A DNA stretch of 62,361 bases from assembly GCA_003134435.1 (NCBI GenBank), contig PLBE01000259.1:76704-139064 (forward strand), written 5' to 3'. Shown here in pieces: positions 3-52,698 of this stretch; within the stretch, counting starts at the first letter, position 1; each line of letters starts with the position of its first letter. The notes beneath the pieces are model-generated. The model was not told the DNA's origin, did no database searches, and saw nothing but the letters and a program-made list of their open reading frames with translations. The translations under genes and the position numbers were made by a program. The DNA is from Acidobacteriaceae bacterium. Lineage in GTDB: Bacteria > Acidobacteriota > Terriglobia > Terriglobales > Acidobacteriaceae.

Positions 3-2162
3 GACTCTGCCGAAGCGATCTTGCTGAGTACTGGTAAGTTCAATGTGCGCATCGAAAAAGTTTCGATGCGGATTGTCTTCGAGGAAACTTCCGGAAAGAT
101 CATTCTCCAGGACTACCCCGGATACCCGGTGGCATGGAATGGCCAGCAGTTTCGGATTTGGAAAGCAATGCCCCCCAACGAACACTATTTCGGTCTGGGA
201 GACAAAGCCAGCGAACTCGACCACCGAGGGCGGGCCTTTACGAACTGGAACACCGATTGGGGAGGATTCGAAAAGGGCACCGACCCGCTGTATAAGACAA
301 TTCCATTTTTTATTGGAATGTCTGGTCCTTCCGCGTACGGACTCTTCCTTGACAATACGTACTGGTCCAGTTTCGACTTCGGAAAAGAAAATCGCGATGC
401 GCTATCCTTCGGAGCCGAGGGCGGGGAACTCGATTACTACTTCTTCTACGGGCCTGATCCGAAAGCGGTCATCGGCGAATATACGCAATTGACCGGACGC
501 ATGCCCTTGCCGCCGCTTTTCATGCTGGGATACCAGCAAAGTCGCTGGAGTTACTTCCCTGAGACCCGCGTGCGCGAGGTCGCACAGGAGTTTCGCAATC
601 GAAAGATTCCAGCCGACGCCATCTGGCTGGATATCGACTATCAAAAAGACCACACGGTTTTCACTGTGAACCGCGACGCCTTCCCGCACTTCGAGGATAT
701 GATCCACGATTTGGCGCAAGAGGGCTTCAAGACCATCCTCATCACGGATCTCCACATCAAGAAACAGGCAGGCTATAAGCCCTACGACGAAGGCATAGCG
801 AACGACGAATTCGTCAAGAATCCAGACGGTTCAGTCTTCGTGGGCGATGTCTGGCCCGGCCCCAGCGTTTTCCCGGATTTCACCCGCGAAGCGACGAGGA
901 AATGGTGGGGAACACTCTTCACCGACTTCGTCCACATGGGAGTCCGTGGATTCTGGAACGACATGAACGAACCATCCGTCTTCAACGCCGAGCACACCAT
1001 GCCTCTGAACACACTGCATCGCGTGGAAGACGGTCGACAATATCGGGTCGCCGATCATCGCGAGATCCACAATGTCTTCGGAATGGAAAACGTCCGCGCC
1101 ACCCACGACGGCCTGCTGGCGCTCTCTTCCGATATTCGCCCCGTCGTGATGACACGCGCCGGCTATGCCGGAACCCAGCGCTACGCTGCCACATGGACTG
1201 GTGATAACACACCCACGTGGTCGCAATTGGCACTCTCGGTACCCATGCTCTTGAGCCTTGGTGTCTCCGGCTATCCCCTCGCCGGAGATGACATCGGCGG
1301 CTTCGGTGGAAGCCCGACCCCGGAACTTCTGACGCGATGGATCGAACTCGGCACCTTCAACACCATTGCCCGTAGCCACAGTTCTTTGAACACCTCCAAT
1401 CACGAGCCCTGGGCAGACGGACCCGAACAGGAAGCGATACGCCGACGCTACATTGAAAATCGTTACCGGTTGCTTCCTTACATTTACACGAACATGGAAG
1501 AAACGTCTCGAACTGGGTTGCCGCTCATGCGTCCGATGTTTCTTGAGTTCCCTTCGGAAACCACCTTAGCGGCCAATGATCGGGAATTTATGTTCGGGCA
1601 TGACTTGCTCGTCGCTCCGCAACTGAGTGAGGCTCGGGATCCGCTCATCGTCGAACTGCCCGCCGGTGCTTGGTACGACTATTGGACGGGAATACGAGTG
1701 CTTGATAAATCCCCGCTTGCGCTTCATCCAAAGCTCGACCAGCTTCCTGTTTTCGTCCGGGCGGGATCAATCATTCCCAGACAGCCCGTCATCCAACATG
1801 TCGAAGAGATCCCGCAGGGTCCCCTTGAGTTAAATGTCTATCCCGGTCCGGATTGTCACGGCTCGTTGTATGCAGATGATGGGGATACTTTCGCTTACCA
1901 ACGCGGCGTCTACTTTCGTGTTCAGTTTTCGTGCGCGGCAAATGCGGATTCTCTGCAGCTCACCATGTCAAGCGCGGAAGGAACGTATACTCCCTGGTGG
2001 AAGAACGTTCAGGTCACCGTGTTCGGCACTCCCCGGAAGCCAACCCGCGTACTGCTTAACGGCCGGCCCTTCGAACCCTGGCAATTCGATGCGGACAACA
2101 ACTCGGTTTCTGTTCTGTCTCCTTACAGCCGCTCGGGACTGGAACTGAAGATCATCGATTGA
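3..2162 (+). CDS. GH31 alpha-glucosidase/alpha-xylosidase family, 5' truncated
   Basis: Hydrolyses non-reducing terminal alpha-glycosidic bonds of oligosaccharides. The reading frame is open through the left window edge, so the N-terminus lies outside; the first possible in-window start (TTG at 21) is probably internal. The GH31 barrel is clear: the sugar-binding segment IWLDIDYQKD, the catalytic nucleophile Asp of WNDMNEPSVF (codon near nt 960) and the acid/base Asp of TGDNTPTW (near nt 1203) are all present. The C-terminal third (after about nt 1650) is the usual beta-sandwich region. It converges on the GH35/GH27 pair on the other strand. The exact substrate (glucose, xylose or galactose linked) cannot be read from the motifs alone. 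Confidence 0.93.
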   Translation, partial: DSAEAILLSTGKFNVRIEKVSMRIVFEETSGKIILQDYPGYPVAWNGQQFRIWKAMPPNEHYFGLGDKASELDHRGRAFTNWNTDWGGFEKGTDPLYKTIPFFIGMSGPSAYGLFLDNTYWSSFDFGKENRDALSFGAEGGELDYYFFYGPDPKAVIGEYTQLTGRMPLPPLFMLGYQQSRWSYFPETRVREVAQEFRNRKIPADAIWLDIDYQKDHTVFTVNRDAFPHFEDMIHDLAQEGFKTILITDLHIKKQAGYKPYDEGIANDEFVKNPDGSVFVGDVWPGPSVFPDFTREATRKWWGTLFTDFVHMGVRGFWNDMNEPSVFNAEHTMPLNTLHRVEDGRQYRVADHREIHNVFGMENVRATHDGLLALSSDIRPVVMTRAGYAGTQRYAATWTGDNTPTWSQLALSVPMLLSLGVSGYPLAGDDIGGFGGSPTPELLTRWIELGTFNTIARSHSSLNTSNHEPWADGPEQEAIRRRYIENRYRLLPYIYTNMEETSRTGLPLMRPMFLEFPSETTLAANDREFMFGHDLLVAPQLSEARDPLIVELPAGAWYDYWTGIRVLDKSPLALHPKLDQLPVFVRAGSIIPRQPVIQHVEEIPQGPLELNVYPGPDCHGSLYADDGDTFAYQRGVYFRVQFSCAANADSLQLTMSSAEGTYTPWWKNVQVTVFGTPRKPTRVLLNGRPFEPWQFDADNNSVSVLSPYSRSGLELKIID

Positions 2163-2236
2163 CCCCCTTCAAGAATTTGCATTTGCCGCACATTCGAGAA
2201 TGCCCCCCGCCACCAACCCAGCGACCGTGTTTCCAC

Positions 2237-3835
2237 TCAGTAGGTACCAAGTTTCATATGAAGAATCCGCCCGGCACCGCCAAAATCGACGCCAAAATCG
2301 CACTCGTCTCCATTCAATAAGCGCTGGACCTTCCAATGTCCATCTTCATAAACTCCCTCTTCCACCCTCATGAATTGCCAGCGCTCTTTCAAGTTGGGAT
2401 GAGTCAGATTGAATTCAATCCGCGCATCGAACCCCGTGGCCAGGAATTCATCTGGCCCAATTTCCGCGACCAGCAACTCGCCGGTCGGCTGGCTACTGGC
2501 AGAACGCACACCGTCATTGTGCCGTCCAAACGTAGCAATCGCTTTCCATTTTCCGAATCTCAAAGTGTGAGTCGAAACATCTTCCCCTTCCATGGCTGTC
2601 TTCAATTTACCTTCGAACGTCAGACGTGCGATTTCGCGATCCATCGATGCCAGCAAACGGAATGTGCGTTCGAATGGAACCAGTTCAGGATAAGACGATG
2701 CGCTCGCCGGCTCGATATCGGTTCGATCGTTGACGTGATCAAGCCCCCATACCGTGAAACCGATGCCGCCCTCTCCCAGCACGCTGAACGGGTAACGCGC
2801 AAACTCGGGCTGATTTCCATTCTCCGGAACAAAAAGCGCGTTGTCGGGACGGTGATACGCTGAAATAACGCGTCTGTATGTTGTATCCCCAGAAAGATAG
2901 ATATCGGGCGCGATCAGATCAATGGACGGGGCAACGGCCTTCCACAAATCGAGCACGGTATCCACGCCTCCGCCGCTCGGATAGCTCCTTGGCGGATCCG
3001 GTTCGGAATCGTCGGGTGTACGCACCCACGCATTCAAGTACATCGGCAGCACATACTCGCGTTTCCCCGCGGCGGCCACCTGGTCGATGTAGCGCGCAAC
3101 TGCGTATGCCTGAAATCGCTCCCCGGCCGTTGAACCGAATACCTGATCCCATGTACCCGCGGGCAGGTTCAACCTGCGTGTCAGGGCGGCTGGAACATCC
3201 GAAAAATATGACTTCTGCGCAGCCGGCGAAAAATCACGGACGGAATCGAGCGAGCCCGGCTCATTTTCCACCTGCACCATCAACACCGTATGTCGCTCTC
3301 CGTCGATTTCTTTCAGATGCCGCATCAGTGCGGCAAATGCGCGTTTGTCAGCTTCGAGCGTCTCCACGCCGAATGGCGAAAGCGAATCCGTCAAGCGTCC
3401 GCTAGCGTCGATAAGACGCGGATACTTCGCCGTGTCCGTCTTGATCCACTCCGGGACATAGTGACAGCGCGCGTTCTTCCAGGTGCCAAACCAGAGCAAC
3501 ACCACTCGAAGCTTGTGTTCACGCGCCTGCGCCACCACTGCGTCTACGTTGGCGAAGTCAAATTGTCCGGGCTGGGCCTCCAACTGCTCCCAGTAAATCG
3601 GCGCCTCCACGGTGTTTGCATGAATGAACTCCAGCGCTGGCCAAACTTGTGGCAAAACCCCTGGCCATGCGCTGGAGTTGTGAATTTGCCCCCCAAGAAT
3701 GAAGAAGGGTTGCCCGTCCACATAGAGACTATATCGGCCATGTTCCTGCACAAGCCTCGGCATTTCCGCAGCAGCCGCACAGACGGACGCACCGCAGATG
3801 AACATGAGACAGCAGAAACGGAATAAGTAGTTCAT
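2237..3835 (-). CDS. Secreted GH35-like beta-galactosidase
   Basis: 532 residues with an N-terminal signal peptide (hydrophobic segment ending near AAAAEM). The mature start has the GH35/GH42-type barrel opening (FFILGGQIHNSSAWP), then VEAPIYWEQLE, and the proton-donor region VQVENEPGS near residue 190. It is shorter than classical LacZ-type or long GH35 enzymes and resembles the DUF5597-containing GH35 proteins of Acidobacteria and Bacteroidetes. Expected role: removal of terminal beta-galactose in the periplasm or outside the cell. It lies 24 nt downstream of the GH27 alpha-galactosidase on the same strand, so the two are probably one transcript that removes both galactose anomers. The precise subfamily and substrate are inferred. 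Confidence 0.85.
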   Translation of the reverse strand: MNYLFRFCCLMFICGASVCAAAAEMPRLVQEHGRYSLYVDGQPFFILGGQIHNSSAWPGVLPQVWPALEFIHANTVEAPIYWEQLEAQPGQFDFANVDAVVAQAREHKLRVVLLWFGTWKNARCHYVPEWIKTDTAKYPRLIDASGRLTDSLSPFGVETLEADKRAFAALMRHLKEIDGERHTVLMVQVENEPGSLDSVRDFSPAAQKSYFSDVPAALTRRLNLPAGTWDQVFGSTAGERFQAYAVARYIDQVAAAGKREYVLPMYLNAWVRTPDDSEPDPPRSYPSGGGVDTVLDLWKAVAPSIDLIAPDIYLSGDTTYRRVISAYHRPDNALFVPENGNQPEFARYPFSVLGEGGIGFTVWGLDHVNDRTDIEPASASSYPELVPFERTFRLLASMDREIARLTFEGKLKTAMEGEDVSTHTLRFGKWKAIATFGRHNDGVRSASSQPTGELLVAEIGPDEFLATGFDARIEFNLTHPNLKERWQFMRVEEGVYEDGHWKVQRLLNGDECDFGVDFGGAGRILHMKLGTY

Positions 3836-43394: not shown

Positions 43395-44096
43395 TTAATA
43401 AGCCTTCGCCTTGAACGTGAAGTTGACGTCCTTCGTCTCGTTCCCGGTGATGGTAACGTCCGCCGTCTGCGTGCCGTAGTCTTCGTGCCAGGCGGTGATC
43501 GTGTACTTACCCGGAGGCAGGTTCGGTAGCTTGAAGTCCCCTCCATCCTTGCTCACGTCGTAGTGCGACGTCTTTAACACCACGAACCAGCCGTGCATCC
43601 ACGGATGTATATTGCATTTCACCGGGATGAATTCGGGCTTGTCGTATTTCTCTTTAATCGGCGGCGTGCCCGGTGGTTGGGATTTGTTCCACTCCGTGTT
43701 CACCTTCGGCAGCGGGTGGATGTTGTGCGAAGTCTGATCGTCATTGAGAATTTCGAATTCCTGGTTGACGTGCATTGGCAGAACATGCGGAATGTACTGG
43801 CAACCCTTCTGTGTGTAGGTGATCGTCTGCGACGGAACCTGGCCGTCGTCGGGAGCACCCGACGATAGGTACACCACCACGTTATCCAGTCCGTTATTGG
43901 GCCCGGTTACCACCGTCTCGTTGGTGATGGGAGTCGCGTGCTGCTTGGCACAACTCGGTTCTTTCGACATATCGATAGGTTTTTGTTTTACTGGCGTGCC
44001 CGTGTACGTCACCTTGCCGCTAACCGTTCCGGCAAACATCAGTGACGAACAGACCAACACGATCAATAGAGCCAACAGAGTCTTCTTGGTGCGCAT
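43395..44096 (-). CDS. Exported cupredoxin-like protein with carboxypeptidase-regulatory C-terminus
   Basis: 233 residues from ATG 44096, chosen for the GAGGAGGGG upstream and the signal peptide (TLLALLIVLVCSSLMFAG). A blue-copper-like core has DDQTSHNIHPL (His) and VKCNIHPWMHGW (Cys-x2-His-x2-Met), consistent with a type 1 copper site. The C-terminal about 60 residues (GGDFKLPNLPPGKYTITAWH) resemble a CarboxypepD_reg sandwich. Located between CoxB and a dihaem cytochrome c, it may shuttle electrons to CuA; copper binding is inferred from motif spacing only. Confidence 0.75.
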   Translation of the reverse strand: MRTKKTLLALLIVLVCSSLMFAGTVSGKVTYTGTPVKQKPIDMSKEPSCAKQHATPITNETVVTGPNNGLDNVVVYLSSGAPDDGQVPSQTITYTQKGCQYIPHVLPMHVNQEFEILNDDQTSHNIHPLPKVNTEWNKSQPPGTPPIKEKYDKPEFIPVKCNIHPWMHGWFVVLKTSHYDVSKDGGDFKLPNLPPGKYTITAWHEDYGTQTADVTITGNETKDVNFTFKAKAY

Positions 44097-44147
44097 TTGA
44101 GTAAAACCCCTCCTCGGGTTCTGTCTTCGTTTACCGAGTATCTCCAC

Positions 44148-45101
44148 TTACTGGCCGCCACCAGGCGCCTTGTTGTCGGCCGGTGCAGCCGTCGGCGCCG
44201 CGTTCTTATCCACGTACGGAGGTATGACTCCGTGCGCAGCCATTAGAACTACGTTCTCCTTGCCGTGGCGATGTACCTGCAACGTACGCAGAAAATGGAC
44301 GAGATCCCAGGCGTCGTTCGGCTGAATCACGTCCGCGAAAGAAGGCATCGGCGTGCCGTCCACGCCCGTCATAAAGATCTTGTAGATATCTTGATTCGTA
44401 CTGCCGCACTTAAAGCGCGAATCGTTTCCGCCACCCGCGAAGTTGTAGGGGCGGATCGGTTGGTCCTGGCTATCGGTAAGCGTCGCCGCCGAGGGTCCAT
44501 CGCCTTCTCCGTGCGTGCCATGACACTTCCAGCACTCCAATTTCGCGAATAGTGCCTGTCCGTGCGAAATGCTCTCGATGGTGACCGGGGGCTCAGGCGG
44601 AATCTTGATCGGTTCGCCGGCTTTTTCCTTCTCCCATCGTGGCGAGAAGATTTTGATATACGCGACTAAGTCGGCCCGCTGCTGCTTGGTGAACGTATTC
44701 CATGGCGGCATGTTGGAATTCGTGAAGCCCCGCGCAATACTGTTATACAGATCTTCATCAATCGGCAACGTGCCCGTTAACGTTGAGCGGCACTTGAAAG
44801 TGGCGAGGGTGAAGTTCCGCGGCTTCGGATCCAGCCATACCGCATTCTCGCCATTGCCGTCTCCGTACACGCCGTGACATCCGGCGCAATACCGGCGGTA
44901 GTCGGACTTCGCATCCGCCGCGTGCCCCGTAAGATTGCCGATGTGACTCTCCATCGGCTTGACTGCGACTGGTGGCTTCGGACCGACCAGGGGCTCATCC
45001 TGAGCGGACGCCAGCGTCGCCAACCCAGCCACCAAGAGCACCGCTATCACCGAAGTAAACAAAATCGCTCCCGTCAAACGCCTTGGCCTCAAGCTGTTCA
45101 T
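44148..45101 (-). CDS. Exported dihaem cytochrome c
   Basis: 317 residues from ATG 45101 (AAAGGG upstream), signal peptide ending near TLASAQ. Two class I haem c motifs: CAGCHGVYGDGNG and CWKCHGTHGEGDG, each with a distal Met region (NMPPWN; PMPSFADV). The C-terminus is Pro/Ala-rich (AAPTAAPADNKAPGG). It is encoded between a porin-cytochrome and the cupredoxin of the oxidase operon and is a good candidate electron donor to the oxidase. Confidence 0.92.
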   Translation of the reverse strand: MNSLRPRRLTGAILFTSVIAVLLVAGLATLASAQDEPLVGPKPPVAVKPMESHIGNLTGHAADAKSDYRRYCAGCHGVYGDGNGENAVWLDPKPRNFTLATFKCRSTLTGTLPIDEDLYNSIARGFTNSNMPPWNTFTKQQRADLVAYIKIFSPRWEKEKAGEPIKIPPEPPVTIESISHGQALFAKLECWKCHGTHGEGDGPSAATLTDSQDQPIRPYNFAGGGNDSRFKCGSTNQDIYKIFMTGVDGTPMPSFADVIQPNDAWDLVHFLRTLQVHRHGKENVVLMAAHGVIPPYVDKNAAPTAAPADNKAPGGGQ

Positions 45102-45165
45102 AGTCAGCACCCTTTCAAAAAGTCAACGCCAGCGAACCGACTTCGCCGGCGGGCCATCTCGCTGG

Positions 45166-46593
45166 TTAGAAGTCGAAGTCAATTCCAAACAATAGTTCGC
45201 TGCTGGTCAGGTTCGTCGTGTTGTCAGGCGCCGTTCCGTCCTGGTGCCACCAGTTGTACTCGCCATGGTAGGCAAAGCCAGCACGGCTCGTCATAAACGG
45301 GTTGTAGCGGTAGCCGACCGTGTACGACGTAATATTGCCCAGATTGGATGGAGTCCCAGGCGTCGACTGCTGCGACATCCGGATCGTTTCATAGCGCCCC
45401 AGCAATATCATTTGCGGATTGACTACATAGTGCGGCTCGATCAGAACTCCGTTCCAGGTCGGATTACGCGAGCCGGCGGGCAAGGCGGAAACGCCCGGAA
45501 CGTAGTTGTTCGGGGCCATCCCGTCTGCGTAGTCTCCATAGCCTTGGCCAAACCATGCGCTGTCCTCGCCGTGCTGCGTCACCACCGTGGCATCGATATG
45601 CGGGCCAAAGTAGAACTGCCCCACAAAGCCCTCGCGGCTGTAACCCCGGTTATTGCCACCCGAACCCGGAATCACTCCATTCGGTCCGCCGCCCGAAGGC
45701 CCCGTCAACCAACTGGTCGGCGCTTCCCCAGCCATAACGTAAAAGCCGAGGCGATCCACTCCGAGCTTGCCAGCGTCGAAGGCCTGACTGCCGGTGATGA
45801 ATGTGGAATACGATTCAGCACCGTAGGGCAATCCGACTTGTCCGTCGTTCGAACTCAGCAGCGAAACCGAATAGCGCGTGCGGTCGTTGGCCGAGTGCCC
45901 CATCACTTCGACGCCGAGCTGGTTATCTCCCATTTGCCCGAAGATATTGCCGTCATTTGCCGGAATGAAGTGGTAGAGCTGGTAAATCCCGCCATTTCCT
46001 GTGAGTGTCAGAATGCGCTTTTCGGAGAGCAGGTTGTCAAGTTCGAACTTGCCGAACTTCACATTGAGCCATGGACTGCTCCCGATGTTGTCGAGCCGCG
46101 CCATGACCGTTTCGAAGTGAAACGAGGCGGTTGGATCGGACGAAGGCAACACATAGAAAGAGAAGTTCTTTTCCAGCGTTCCCCCAGTGTGGAAGTCGAG
46201 GCCGCTCAGGTCGAAGCCAGACGAGGTAATCTTCTGTTCACCGCTGAGGCTTTGGTCGGTCGCGACCTTGTTGGTGCTCACCCGATGCCAGATCGGAGTG
46301 ATCCGGAACGTCACCGGCCAATAACCGGGATTCTGCCAGATCGGTGCATCCCGGTCATTCATGAGCTGGTAGCCGTTGTCTTTGAATTTCTGGCCAAAGA
46401 AATTCAACATCGGCCAACTTTCATGACAGGCCGAACAACGCAGACCATACTTCCGCGCGAAAGCCGGCAGCGCGCTCGCCCGCGGACTTGCGCCAACAAC
46501 GATCAAAAGGATGAACGCGAAAGCCGCGGCCATGACGGAATGTCTCCGCGGCGACCTCCGACAGATGAGAAGAGACTGCGCCCACATACGCAT
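45166..46593 (-). CDS. Outer-membrane porin-like protein with N-terminal haem c motif
   Basis: 475 residues from ATG 46593 (AGGAG 7 nt upstream). A signal peptide (AFAFILLIVVGASPRASA) is followed within about 15 residues by CSACH, a haem c attachment motif, and then by a beta-rich chain with alternating hydrophobic strands to the final LLFGIDFDF. The terminal Phe and strand pattern indicate an outer-membrane barrel. First gene of the cytochrome/oxidase operon; the next gene starts 64 nt on. It may move electrons through the outer membrane or anchor a cytochrome there; no named family is claimed. Confidence 0.75.
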   Translation of the reverse strand: MRMWAQSLLICRRSPRRHSVMAAAFAFILLIVVGASPRASALPAFARKYGLRCSACHESWPMLNFFGQKFKDNGYQLMNDRDAPIWQNPGYWPVTFRITPIWHRVSTNKVATDQSLSGEQKITSSGFDLSGLDFHTGGTLEKNFSFYVLPSSDPTASFHFETVMARLDNIGSSPWLNVKFGKFELDNLLSEKRILTLTGNGGIYQLYHFIPANDGNIFGQMGDNQLGVEVMGHSANDRTRYSVSLLSSNDGQVGLPYGAESYSTFITGSQAFDAGKLGVDRLGFYVMAGEAPTSWLTGPSGGGPNGVIPGSGGNNRGYSREGFVGQFYFGPHIDATVVTQHGEDSAWFGQGYGDYADGMAPNNYVPGVSALPAGSRNPTWNGVLIEPHYVVNPQMILLGRYETIRMSQQSTPGTPSNLGNITSYTVGYRYNPFMTSRAGFAYHGEYNWWHQDGTAPDNTTNLTSSELLFGIDFDF

Positions 46594-46914
46594 GCTGCGC
46601 TCCTCACTCAATTTTTTGCAAAAGCTGTAACCCCGGAGCCCTCTAGCGACAACGAACCGCGCGGATTGCGGTCGTAACACCCCTGTCAAACGCTCGCATC
46701 CACCCGCGCTTCTTCGATAAAAAATTGCAAACACCCCACCGGCGCTGGATACTACTACCGCTCGGACTCAACTGCAAGAGGGTTCAAAAAAAAAATTTAC
46801 AAATTGTTTACATCTTGCGTGACTGCGGGATGGCGTTCGAAGTGTTCCCCGAGCTAGTTGACAGTCATCAACCCAGCGTATGAGACTCTTGCAACAGGAA
46901 CACCGGAGTTGGTC
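46594..46914. promoter_or_regulatory. Divergent intergenic region between the oxidase operon and the SH3-like pair
   Basis: 321 nt without a supported gene. It contains an A10 tract (46786-46795) followed by TTTACA twice (46796-46801, 46807-46812), unusually AT-rich for this window and probably a promoter region; no complete -35/-10 pair was convincing. GGAG at 46905-46908 is the RBS for the GTG at 46915. Confidence 0.4.
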
Positions 46915-50647: not shown

Positions 50648-51094
50648 CTAGTGCCGGCATGCGGAGCAGTATCCACCTACTTCAAGTCGCGCTACCACGA
50701 TGTGAAAATTACAGTCGCGCTCCAACTGCTTTTTCAGCGACTCAAATGTCTTGCTGACAAACTCGGTAATCTTCCCGCACCTCAGACACGCCATGTGAAT
50801 ATGATCGCGGCCCAACTTGCGCTCGTAGTAATGACCTTCGCCGTTCAGATGCATCAGGTCGAGTTCGTCGATCAACCCCTGGCGCTTCAGCAGATCGAGT
50901 GTCCGATAGACGGTGCTGCGATCGACCGAAGCGTCCAGCGTTCGCGCCTTGCGCAGGATCTGAGTCGCATCCAGGTGCTTGGTCGCGGTCTCAATCACAC
51001 TCAGAATCGCGCGCCGTGGACCAGTCATCCGGATCCCGCGTTCGGCCAGTTGCATCTGCAAGCGGCCGGGAATCTCCGTCTGGGGCAGGGGCAT
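50648..51094 (-). CDS. Fur family metal-dependent transcriptional regulator
   Basis: 148 residues from ATG 51094 (GGGAG upstream); the frame is open to 51229 but that part shows no family pattern. DNA-binding N-terminus: RGIRMTGPRRAILSVIETATKHLDATQILRKAR and DRSTVYRTLDLLKRQGLI. The metal region GEGHYYERKLGRDHIHMACLRCGKITEF contains the HxH and first CxxC, and YCSACRH at the end is the second CxxC of the structural zinc site. Whether it senses iron, zinc or peroxide cannot be decided from motifs. It is divergent from an outer-membrane protein/cytochrome c pair, with three similar palindromes between. Confidence 0.93.
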   Translation of the reverse strand: MPLPQTEIPGRLQMQLAERGIRMTGPRRAILSVIETATKHLDATQILRKARTLDASVDRSTVYRTLDLLKRQGLIDELDLMHLNGEGHYYERKLGRDHIHMACLRCGKITEFVSKTFESLKKQLERDCNFHIVVARLEVGGYCSACRH

Positions 51095-51115: not shown

Positions 51116-51132
51116 TTGCGACTCGCTCGCAA
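51116..51132. promoter_or_regulatory. Fur-type operator, site 1
   Basis: TTGCGACTCGCTCGCAA: 6-bp arms with a 5-nt centre, just upstream of the fur-like start codon, suggesting autoregulation. Confidence 0.55.
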
Positions 51133-51139
51133 ATAACCT

Positions 51140-51155
51140 GCGACGAAATCGTCGC
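51140..51155. promoter_or_regulatory. Fur-type operator, site 2
   Basis: GCGACGA-AA-TCGTCGC, perfect 7-bp arms, sharing the GCGAC/GTCGC half-sites with its neighbours. Confidence 0.5.
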
Positions 51156-51162
51156 GCCCCCG

Positions 51163-51192
51163 TTGACAGCGCACCGAGACGCGCTCTACGCT
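51163..51192 (+). promoter_or_regulatory. Sigma70-like promoter for the outer-membrane protein/cytochrome c pair
   Basis: TTGACA at 51163-51168 and TACGCT at 51187-51192 with an 18-nt spacer. The -10 is weak (3 of 6). The predicted start lies just before the site-3 operator. Confidence 0.4.
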
Positions 51193-51210
51193 CGAAATTG
51201 TAATCTGTAA

Positions 51211-51225
51211 TGCGACTCAGTCGCA
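51211..51225. promoter_or_regulatory. Fur-type operator, site 3
   Basis: TGCGACT-C-AGTCGCA, a perfect 7-1-7 palindrome, the geometry typical of Fur-family boxes, about 20 nt after the putative -10 of the plus-strand promoter. Confidence 0.6.
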
Positions 51226-51289
51226 ACACAATCTTGCAAATATATTTGCCTCCGAACAGTCTGACAAAGACATCAGAGACAAGGAGCTC

Positions 51290-52204
51290 ATGGTCGCTCG
51301 CATTTTTTCTCAGTCCATCCCGCGGATGTGTCCCAGCGCCCTCATCTTCATCTTGTCACTACCGCTATGGGCGTCCTCCGCAGTTTGGGGGCAGGAGAGT
51401 CCTTACATCGTCACCTACGACCACTACCTCGAAGAACCAGGCAGCCTGGAGGTGGAATATTTTTCCACATTCGGCACCCAGCGTCGCGGCAACGACTTCG
51501 ATGCCTTCTGGATGGAATTTGAATATGGCGTCACCGCCTGGTGGACGACCGAACTCTACCTCGCCGGACAGACCACCTTCAACGACAGCACCATCCTTAC
51601 CGGGACCCGCTTTGAAAACCGCCTTCGTCTGCTGCAACGCGAGCACATCGTTAATCCAGTGCTCTACCTCGAGTTCGAGAACACCAACGGGGCCGATAAA
51701 ATCTTGAAAGAGGTTGAAGGCCACGATGTAGAGTCCGATTACACCAATCGCAATGGCATACTCCGGCAAGAACACGACCACGAACTCGAAATGAAGCTTC
51801 TGCTTTCCAGCACTTTCAACGGCTGGAATGTCGCCCTGAATCCCATCGTCACCAGGAACCTGCTGCCCAGCGAGCCATGGGAACTTGCTTACGCGCTTGG
51901 TGCCAGCCGTCCGCTCGCGTTGAAGGCTTCACCCAACCGCTGCAATTTTTGTCCAGAGAATTTCATTGCGGGTGCGGAGATCTACGGAGGCCTGGGCGAT
52001 GCGCGGAGCGCCGGTCTTCATCACACGTCTCACTACCTCGCGCCCGTACTGGCGTGGAACCTTCCGTCGGACTGGACCGTTCGTTTTTCCGGCGGCTTCG
52101 GGCTGAATGAGAACAGCCATCGCCTCCTGCTGCGCTGGGGGCTCTCGCGTGAGTTCTCTGGCTTCGGTGAGTTGCTGGAACATTTCTTGGGAGGGAGGCG
52201 ATGA
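51290..52204 (+). CDS. Predicted outer-membrane protein of unknown function
   Basis: 304 residues, AAGGAG upstream of ATG 51290, signal peptide (ALIFILSLPLWASSAVWGQ). The mature chain is rich in amphipathic beta strands (LEVEYFSTFG, WWTTELYLAGQTTF, VRFSGGFGLN), consistent with a barrel. One CxxC (RCNFCPENF) is present mid-chain but no haem motif. No family recognised. The stop overlaps the cytochrome c start by 4 nt, so the pair is translationally coupled; upstream palindromes suggest control by the Fur-type regulator. Confidence 0.7.
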   Translation: MVARIFSQSIPRMCPSALIFILSLPLWASSAVWGQESPYIVTYDHYLEEPGSLEVEYFSTFGTQRRGNDFDAFWMEFEYGVTAWWTTELYLAGQTTFNDSTILTGTRFENRLRLLQREHIVNPVLYLEFENTNGADKILKEVEGHDVESDYTNRNGILRQEHDHELEMKLLLSSTFNGWNVALNPIVTRNLLPSEPWELAYALGASRPLALKASPNRCNFCPENFIAGAEIYGGLGDARSAGLHHTSHYLAPVLAWNLPSDWTVRFSGGFGLNENSHRLLLRWGLSREFSGFGELLEHFLGGRR

Positions 52205-52698
52205 AGAAGCGCTCGATTCTCTTTTTCGCCCTCGCTCGCGTCACTCTGGCAACCGCCGGCGTGATCGTCCTCGGCGCCTGTTTGTCTCTCGCCCAAAGAC
52301 AAAAGGAAAATGCGGCCTCAAGGACGAATCGGCTGGCGGATGCCGCACTGGCCGAGGTCCCCGAGAAAGATCGACAAAGGAGAAATCCGTTCGAGGGCGA
52401 TACCCAGGCCATGGCTGCCGGAGGTAAGCTCTTCGAACAGCACTGTGCCGGCTGCCATGGACCAAAAGCGGGAGGCACTCGACACGGCGCGAGTTTGCTG
52501 CGGGAAGAGGTGCAGCAGTCGACGCCCGGAACGCTATTCTGGATTCTGACCAACGGAGTTGTCCGCCACGGTATGCCCGTTTGGTCGAAGTTGCCGGAAC
52601 CGCAGCGCTGGCAGATTGTCACCTTCTTGCAGTCGTTGCAGCTGCGGCCGCCAAATCCACGGCCCGCACCCCAGAACCAGAGCACACGAGCCCGGTAA
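52201..52698 (+). CDS. Exported monohaem cytochrome c
   Basis: 165 residues with an N-terminal hydrophobic signal (VTLATAGVIVLGACLSLAQ). Class I haem motif CAGCHGPKAGG (about residue 80) and a distal Met in HGMPVWSKLPEPQRWQIVTFLQSL. Starts within the stop of the outer-membrane protein gene. Likely periplasmic electron carrier serving that protein or the nearby oxidase. Confidence 0.88.
   Translation: MKKRSILFFALARVTLATAGVIVLGACLSLAQRQKENAASRTNRLADAALAEVPEKDRQRRNPFEGDTQAMAAGGKLFEQHCAGCHGPKAGGTRHGASLLREEVQQSTPGTLFWILTNGVVRHGMPVWSKLPEPQRWQIVTFLQSLQLRPPNPRPAPQNQSTRAR

Follow-up and report, generated by a model that had tools for sequence, protein, structure and literature searches.

FurX, a Fur-family protein encoded in an Acidobacteriaceae genome, is probably a dedicated, autoregulated and metal-dependent repressor, with iron the probable metal, of the genes for an envelope iron-redox pair composed of an outer-membrane barrel protein and a c-type cytochrome. 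The evidence comprises conservation of the operator, its co-occurrence with FurX, an operator swap, gene neighbourhoods, and invariant metal-ligand and DNA-contact positions; from these sequence comparisons we infer that FurX binds DNA and represses its targets, that the metal is iron and what role the pair plays. The window (the whole stretch of DNA that was analysed, 62,361 nucleotides) contains the following features at this locus:

50648..51094, minus strand: furX, Fur-family regulator, 148 aa, ATG at 51094 (PF01475, E 4.5e-26)
51116-51132: site 1, TTGCGACTCGCTCGCAA, a perfect 6-5-6 palindrome directly upstream of furX
51140-51155: site 2, GCGACGAAATCGTCGC, a 6-4-6 palindrome
51163..51192, plus strand: putative promoter of the pair, TTGACA (51163-51168), 18 bp, weak TACGCT (51187-51192)
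51210-51226: site 3, 17-bp form ATGCGACTCAGTCGCAA, with the 15-bp core TGCGACTCAGTCGCA at 51211-51225
51290..52204, plus strand: predicted outer-membrane barrel protein, 304 aa, no Pfam family, invariant CxxC (C218, C221)
52201..52698, plus strand: c-type cytochrome, 165 aa, one CxxCH (PF13442, E 5.9e-13)

Palindromes between furX and the gene pair

An earlier note on this DNA had placed three palindromes between a Fur-family gene and a plus-strand gene pair, with sites 1 and 2 upstream of the regulator gene, and its coordinates are right on both points. The half-sites that it described as shared are present as TGCGA/TCGCA words common to sites 1, 2 and 3, but the 7-1-7 architecture is limited to site 3, the sole perfect example among the three; two inner pairs of site 1 are mismatched in that frame. 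Site 3, of the TTGCRACTNAGTYGCAA type, is the predicted main operator, and site 1 is probably the autoregulatory operator of furX.

The 195-bp intergenic region contains 4 centres of perfect inverted repeats with 6-bp arms, against a shuffle mean of 0.38. Because at least 4 such centres arose in only 2 of 5000 dinucleotide shuffles, the clustering is above chance. A single perfect 7-1-7 palindrome is weak evidence, since one arises in 54 of 5000 shuffles of the region and six are found in the 62-kb window. On the minus strand, site 2 has the score of a terminator-like hairpin. A fourth perfect palindrome, GCAAATATATTTGC, lies at 51236-51249 between site 3 and the barrel gene, and is absent from the conserved blocks of the 19-locus intergenic alignment described below.

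In relatives, furX orthologues (95-69% identity) adjoin the same gene pair, and the cytochrome gene, the start of which overlaps the barrel gene by 4 bp, stays beside the barrel gene. The putative TTGACA/TACGCT promoter of the pair is absent from the output of a consensus promoter scan; all 19 aligned regions carry T[TG]GAC, with its spacing to site 3 fixed. Transcription of the pair would start near 51199. Site 3 begins about 11 bp after this predicted start, a position that suits repression, so the earlier description of site 3 as overlapping the transcription start holds approximately. The consensus scan returned a promoter-like TTGCGA/TACAAT on the minus strand, running from 51226 to 51197 with its first hexamer within site 3. 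This is a possible furX promoter and, if it serves as such, site 3 could silence transcription in both directions.

Conservation of the sites in relatives

Of the 150 genomes of the window's family that were searched, 67 contain barrel relatives (E up to 1e-3). A scan of named genomes, the titles of which name acidobacterial groups, confirmed 209 stretches, and the best 80 were retained. L143 and L130 were left out of alignment A2 owing to a stop in range. Nineteen divergent loci were aligned in their intergenic regions; the rows for L020 and L082, and those for L022 and L088, are identical, which leaves 17 distinct genomes among the 19 loci.

Site 1, the left half of site 2, the TTGAC box and site 3 are kept across the aligned loci. 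Site 1 appears mostly in a 16-bp form, GTCGCAACTGATCGCAA, and site 3 is conserved as TTGCRACTNAGTYGCAA with some variants, its start lying 45-49 bp from TTGAC in 19 of 19 loci. What persists of site 2 is mainly the left half, TGCGACGAAAT and variants, which makes the full palindrome peculiar to this genome among the aligned rows. A full-operator role for site 2 was rejected on this ground. Among the best 80 of the 209 named stretches, 36 loci have the site-3 pattern ahead of the pair when up to 2 mismatches are allowed, compared with a mean of 0.06 and a maximum of 2 loci in the shuffle control. The conserved site 3 is a palindrome in the promoter region with the 7-1-7 form of a Fur-type operator.

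Box type follows the presence of FurX

In the family search, in which FurX was scored as present at E up to 1e-30, the TTGC-type box was found at 13 of the 16 related loci with FurX in the genome and at 0 of the 14 without it, whereas the Fur-type (TTGAAAAT-type) box was found at 0 of the 16 and 12 of the 14. In L027, L037 and L038, FurX is present and the box was not found within 2 mismatches. The best 80 of the 209 named loci comprise 42 with a TTGC-type box, 10 with a Fur-type box, 7 with a third type only and 21 with none. FurX adjoins the pair in 28 of these 80, and a count made upstream of the barrel gene only gave 20 TTGC-type boxes, 8 loci with none and 0 Fur-type boxes.

Seventeen further genomes were searched for FurX. 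An unlinked FurX of 52-60% identity was recovered for L096, L104, L100 (a fragment), L112, L120, L123, L118, L125 and L127, a set that includes genomes with TTGC-type or intermediate boxes, and the linked control L082 was recovered in the same search. No FurX was found there for L117, for the third-type loci L147 and L157 or for the Fur-type loci L092, L146, L150 and L130; matches in these FurX-negative genomes reached at most 29-34%. The exceptions are L117, in which the box is present and FurX was not found in the genome, and L118, in which FurX is present with the third box type alone at the set threshold. With kinship taken into account, the association between FurX and the box has the same direction and is not significant (5 independent pairs, median p 0.25), in a test that uses pairs on supported branches only, has low power and includes debatable labels for L120 and L125.

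A quick tree of 96 barrel proteins, many branches of which are weak, requires at least 18 changes of operator type. A swap is seen within the window's own genus, where G000 and G147 have FurX and a TTGC box; G028 differs, with FurX not found at the threshold and a TGAAATTCATTTTCA box ahead of the pair. Exact TGAAAWTNAWTTTCA occurs at 25 sites in ten genomes, against 0 for the reversed pattern. The 17 of these loci that were read contain FTR1 (7), feoAB (2), canonical fur (2), the barrel/cytochrome pair (1), a channel-like protein (2), an OprB-type porin (1) and nothing recognised (2). One FTR1 site with a TTGAAAAT-type box is in the window's own genome, and three more of the 25 sites lie, by coordinates, at the pair (G028, G032 and G106). 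Judged from sequence, these bacteria have the TTGAAAAT-type box as their iron Fur box. Its presence at the pair in species that lack FurX suggests that the pair belongs to the iron regulon there, which would make iron the simplest signal for FurX.

Several genes with Fur-type boxes were noted. In L184, an FTR1 iron permease (1539-2786, plus strand) has a C-terminal FtrD-like iron-sulphur domain and a Fur-type box ahead of it, and the own-genome copy of this gene is in L173. A Fur-type box also lies at the start of the OprB-type porin of L183 (own genome, C78; 32-1528, minus strand), which makes two such boxes in the own genome. L174 and L187 each encode a channel-like protein with a Fur-type box; the two proteins are 54% identical to each other, and that of L187 gives a weak Phenol_MetA_deg match.

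When up to 1 mismatch is tolerated, the third pattern, GGACTNANNTAGTCY, precedes the pair in 22 loci among the best 80 of the 209 named (shuffle mean 0.05). As a palindrome, GGACTNANNTAGTC, it was noted in the upstream regions of L091-L157 (for example, at -75 in L096 and at -66 in L148), and it often co-occurs with the TTGC-type box, often 25 bp before that box. We take it to resemble IscR/Rrf2 boxes. A similar site is described in one report (PMC6956336). Across six genomes the third-box pattern gave few matches, mostly no more than the reversed control; an extra match in G017 (L193) precedes a TonB receptor.

FurX is a distinct Fur-family paralogue

FurX scores 91.8 bits against PF01475 (cut-off 23.1), and stays below the NCBIfam equivalog cut-offs for canonical Fur (best 71 bits against 200) and for PerR (62.2 bits against 180). 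It is about 29% identical to canonical Fur and lacks the marks of a canonical iron Fur, namely a classical TTGAAAAT/GATAAT-type box and the position of general iron regulator. Three Fur-family genes, FurX included, are present in its genome. One of them (C137) is 72% identical to a Fur of G106, which is itself preceded by a Fur-type box; FurX differs from this canonical Fur in having TTGCRACT-type boxes at its locus. Another of the Fur-family genes has a peroxidase-family gene downstream on the same strand, which makes a peroxide-sensing role less likely for FurX.

The best PDB sequence matches to FurX are 5fd6/5fd5, which we take to be the Rhizobium manganese regulator Mur. H40, E91, H98 and H100, presumably the regulatory metal ligands, map by alignment to H33, E81, H88 and H90 of Magnetospirillum Fur (MgFur) and are invariant in 67 of 67 distinct FurX proteins, as are C103, C106, C143 and C146, presumably the structural Zn ligands. 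Y63 and R64, also invariant in 67 of 67, are the equivalents of MgFur Tyr56 and Arg57, which contact the bases (PMC4506495). A further residue varies with the operator: in the 54 of 69 proteins that had a site, Ser or Ala at position 60 accompanies the G5 half-site in 31 of 33 loci, and Val in 0 of 21. Because residue 60 changes once on the tree, this correlation amounts to one event and is hence a prediction.

FurX and its box beyond the pair

Twenty FurX regions without an adjoining pair were fetched. A TTGC-type box with up to 2 mismatches is present in 14 of the 20 and absent from 6, as a raw count made without a shuffle comparison. By Pfam, the neighbours of FurX in these regions include TonB-dependent receptors (L224, L225 and L227), a multicopper oxidase (L223), PepSY_TM (L220) and a cytochrome c (L219); large receptor-like barrels adjoin it in L217, L222 and L226, and no Pfam family was matched by its neighbours in L216. 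Peroxide genes are not prominent among the FurX neighbours that were read. In L228, FurX neighbours a set at 666-3042 (minus strand) made up of a DUF6662 barrel, an FMN_bind protein and ApbE, an alternative combination of barrel and redox proteins. PepSY clusters have been reported to be linked to iron reduction, and to be Fur-repressed in two species (PMC8238504).

The earlier note had suggested scanning the genome for further sites near metal-related genes; none was found in the own genome. The 15-mer has a single exact match. When up to 2 mismatches were allowed, it matched at 16 places and the reversed control at 19; for the 17-mer the numbers were 14 and 9. Twelve of the 17-mer matches lie outside the window, 11 of them within ORFs, and the remaining one (L163) precedes an export-protein-like ORF. 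A wider FurX regulon in this genome was rejected because the matches are at control level and mostly within ORFs. A purely local regulon would explain the lack of matches near metal genes. The single locus of the own genome is unlike the situation in relatives, where FurX and the TTGC-type box are found beside TonB receptors and redox genes.

The barrel and the cytochrome

The structure model of the barrel protein (mean pLDDT 79.8, pTM 0.74) has 12 barrel strands and is nearest to FapF and a COG4313 channel (Z 21.9 and 19.4). The model and these matches to solved outer-membrane channels mark it as an outer-membrane beta-barrel, with a leading hydrophobic stretch as the only export signal. A profile of the barrel gave no useful match to PDB sequences, and assignment to DUF6662 was rejected as weak (hhalign probability 73% over 69 columns). 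The CxxC is invariant in 28 of 28 barrel sequences and, by counting strands in the model, would face the periplasm. An Mtr-type porin-cytochrome conduit was rejected because the cytochrome has one CxxCH, that is, a single haem motif, and the barrel only 12 strands. From its regulation and neighbours alone, the pair may change the redox state of iron for uptake, the weakest step of the proposal. A second barrel/cytochrome set was noted in the window at 43398-46734 on the minus strand; it consists of a two-domain cytochrome c, a carboxypeptidase-regulatory-like protein and a barrel protein of 522 aa that is weakly BBP2-like and has a CSACH motif.

Proposed circuit and alternatives

In the circuit that we propose, an ample supply of the metal (most likely Fe2+) would lead dimers of FurX to bind site 3, just downstream of the predicted promoter of the pair, and also site 1 and the half-site at site 2 ahead of furX, so that both the pair and furX would be silenced; shortage of the metal would release both. 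The barrel would admit or hold iron species, and the periplasmic cytochrome would change the redox state of iron, which FTR1 or Feo could then take up. Where relatives lack furX, the pair would be under canonical Fur via a TTGAAAAT-type box. Comparison among relatives supports the autoregulation and the control of the plus-strand pair that the earlier note had predicted. Its choice of 'metal or peroxide' can be narrowed: the Fur box at the pair where FurX is absent favours iron, and peroxide is less likely. A PerR-like peroxide sensor, with the pair answering oxidative stress, would suit the family of FurX and the adjoining cytochrome; we regard it as very unlikely, given that a different Fur-family gene adjoins the peroxidase-family gene, that peroxide genes are not prominent near FurX and that residue 111 of FurX is Glu, in place of the Asp that Bacillus PerR presumably has.

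The same circuit might instead sense manganese, as presumed for Mur, the best PDB match of FurX, or nickel, as Nur does, with the pair serving that metal. The FurX half-sites match the Nur consensus tTGCaa-N5-ttGCAA in outline (PMC3919588). Against this reading, which we consider unlikely, stand the iron Fur box at the pair in FurX-less genomes and the TonB receptors and PepSY_TM near FurX elsewhere, PepSY clusters being reported as linked to iron reduction and as Fur-repressed (PMC8238504). Site 3 could also be bound by another Fur-family protein, such as canonical Fur, with furX a mere neighbour; the main Fur of Magnetospirillum binds a TTGC-type operator as well as the classical Fur box (PMC4506495). 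This appears distinctly improbable, as box type tracks FurX even when FurX is unlinked, the canonical box in the same genome, at FTR1, is of the TTGAAAAT type and a residue of FurX covaries with the half-site base. That the palindromes are chance occurrences or RNA hairpins only, as the number of 7-1-7 palindromes in the window and the terminator-like score of site 2 might suggest, has next to no probability: the clustering exceeds that in shuffles, the spacing is fixed, and conservation across genera already contradicts it. FurX as an iron-responsive repressor is the preferred reading, and the suggestion that site 3 is a Fur-family operator finds support in the comparison, in that the predicted operator is conserved, tracks FurX even when unlinked and resembles a footprinted Fur operator (PMC4506495).

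More tentatively, Acidobacteriota may possess an undescribed iron-controlled outer-membrane redox module for assimilatory iron handling, consisting of a 12-stranded barrel with an invariant CxxC and a single-haem cytochrome c, that has been rewired repeatedly among a Fur paralogue (TTGCRACT), canonical Fur (TTGAAAAT) and a third palindromic regulator (GACTNANNTAGTC), and in which FurX residue 60 (Ser/Ala or Val) sets a TTGCG or TTGCA half-site. Residue 60 is a candidate specificity residue in a Fur paralogue. The locus links two functionally uncharacterised proteins to a metal signal, and offers a natural case of one gene pair switching regulator and operator. Acidobacteriota are abundant in soil; in the literature searched, no report of Fur operators from its soil members was found.

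Comparison with known systems

Fur-type repression is known; what would be new is its setting, with a dedicated paralogue that has its own operator, is interchangeable with the main iron regulator over evolution and is placed over an uncharacterised envelope redox pair. Canonical Fur belongs to the same family as FurX and is the predicted controller of the same pair in FurX-less relatives, but its box is of the TTGAAAAT type and that of FurX is TTGCRACT. The barrel has a 12-stranded fold similar to those of FapF and COG4313 channels at about 10% sequence identity, and is unlike them in its lack of a Pfam match and its invariant CxxC. M. gryphiswaldense Fur protects TTAATCGCAACTCATTCGCAATTGC at feoAB1 in a metal-dependent manner (PMC4506495); the core of this operator, TCGCAACTCATTCGCAA, agrees with the FurX consensus at 15 of 17 positions and with site 3 of the window at 13 of 17, and the Tyr-Arg DNA-contact positions are kept in FurX. 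The Magnetospirillum protein is the cell's Fur, with feoAB as its target, whereas FurX is a second Fur-family protein with one apparent target locus in its genome. The Streptomyces Nur box shares its half-site outline and spacing with the FurX box, but Nur is a nickel regulator of SOD genes (PMC3919588), and no such genes lie beside FurX in the regions read. The flavinylated and PepSY iron-reduction clusters (PMC8238504) likewise place envelope redox proteins under Fur-family control, and PepSY_TM and an FMN_bind/ApbE set adjoin FurX elsewhere; unlike in those clusters, the redox partner here is a single-haem cytochrome c with a barrel.
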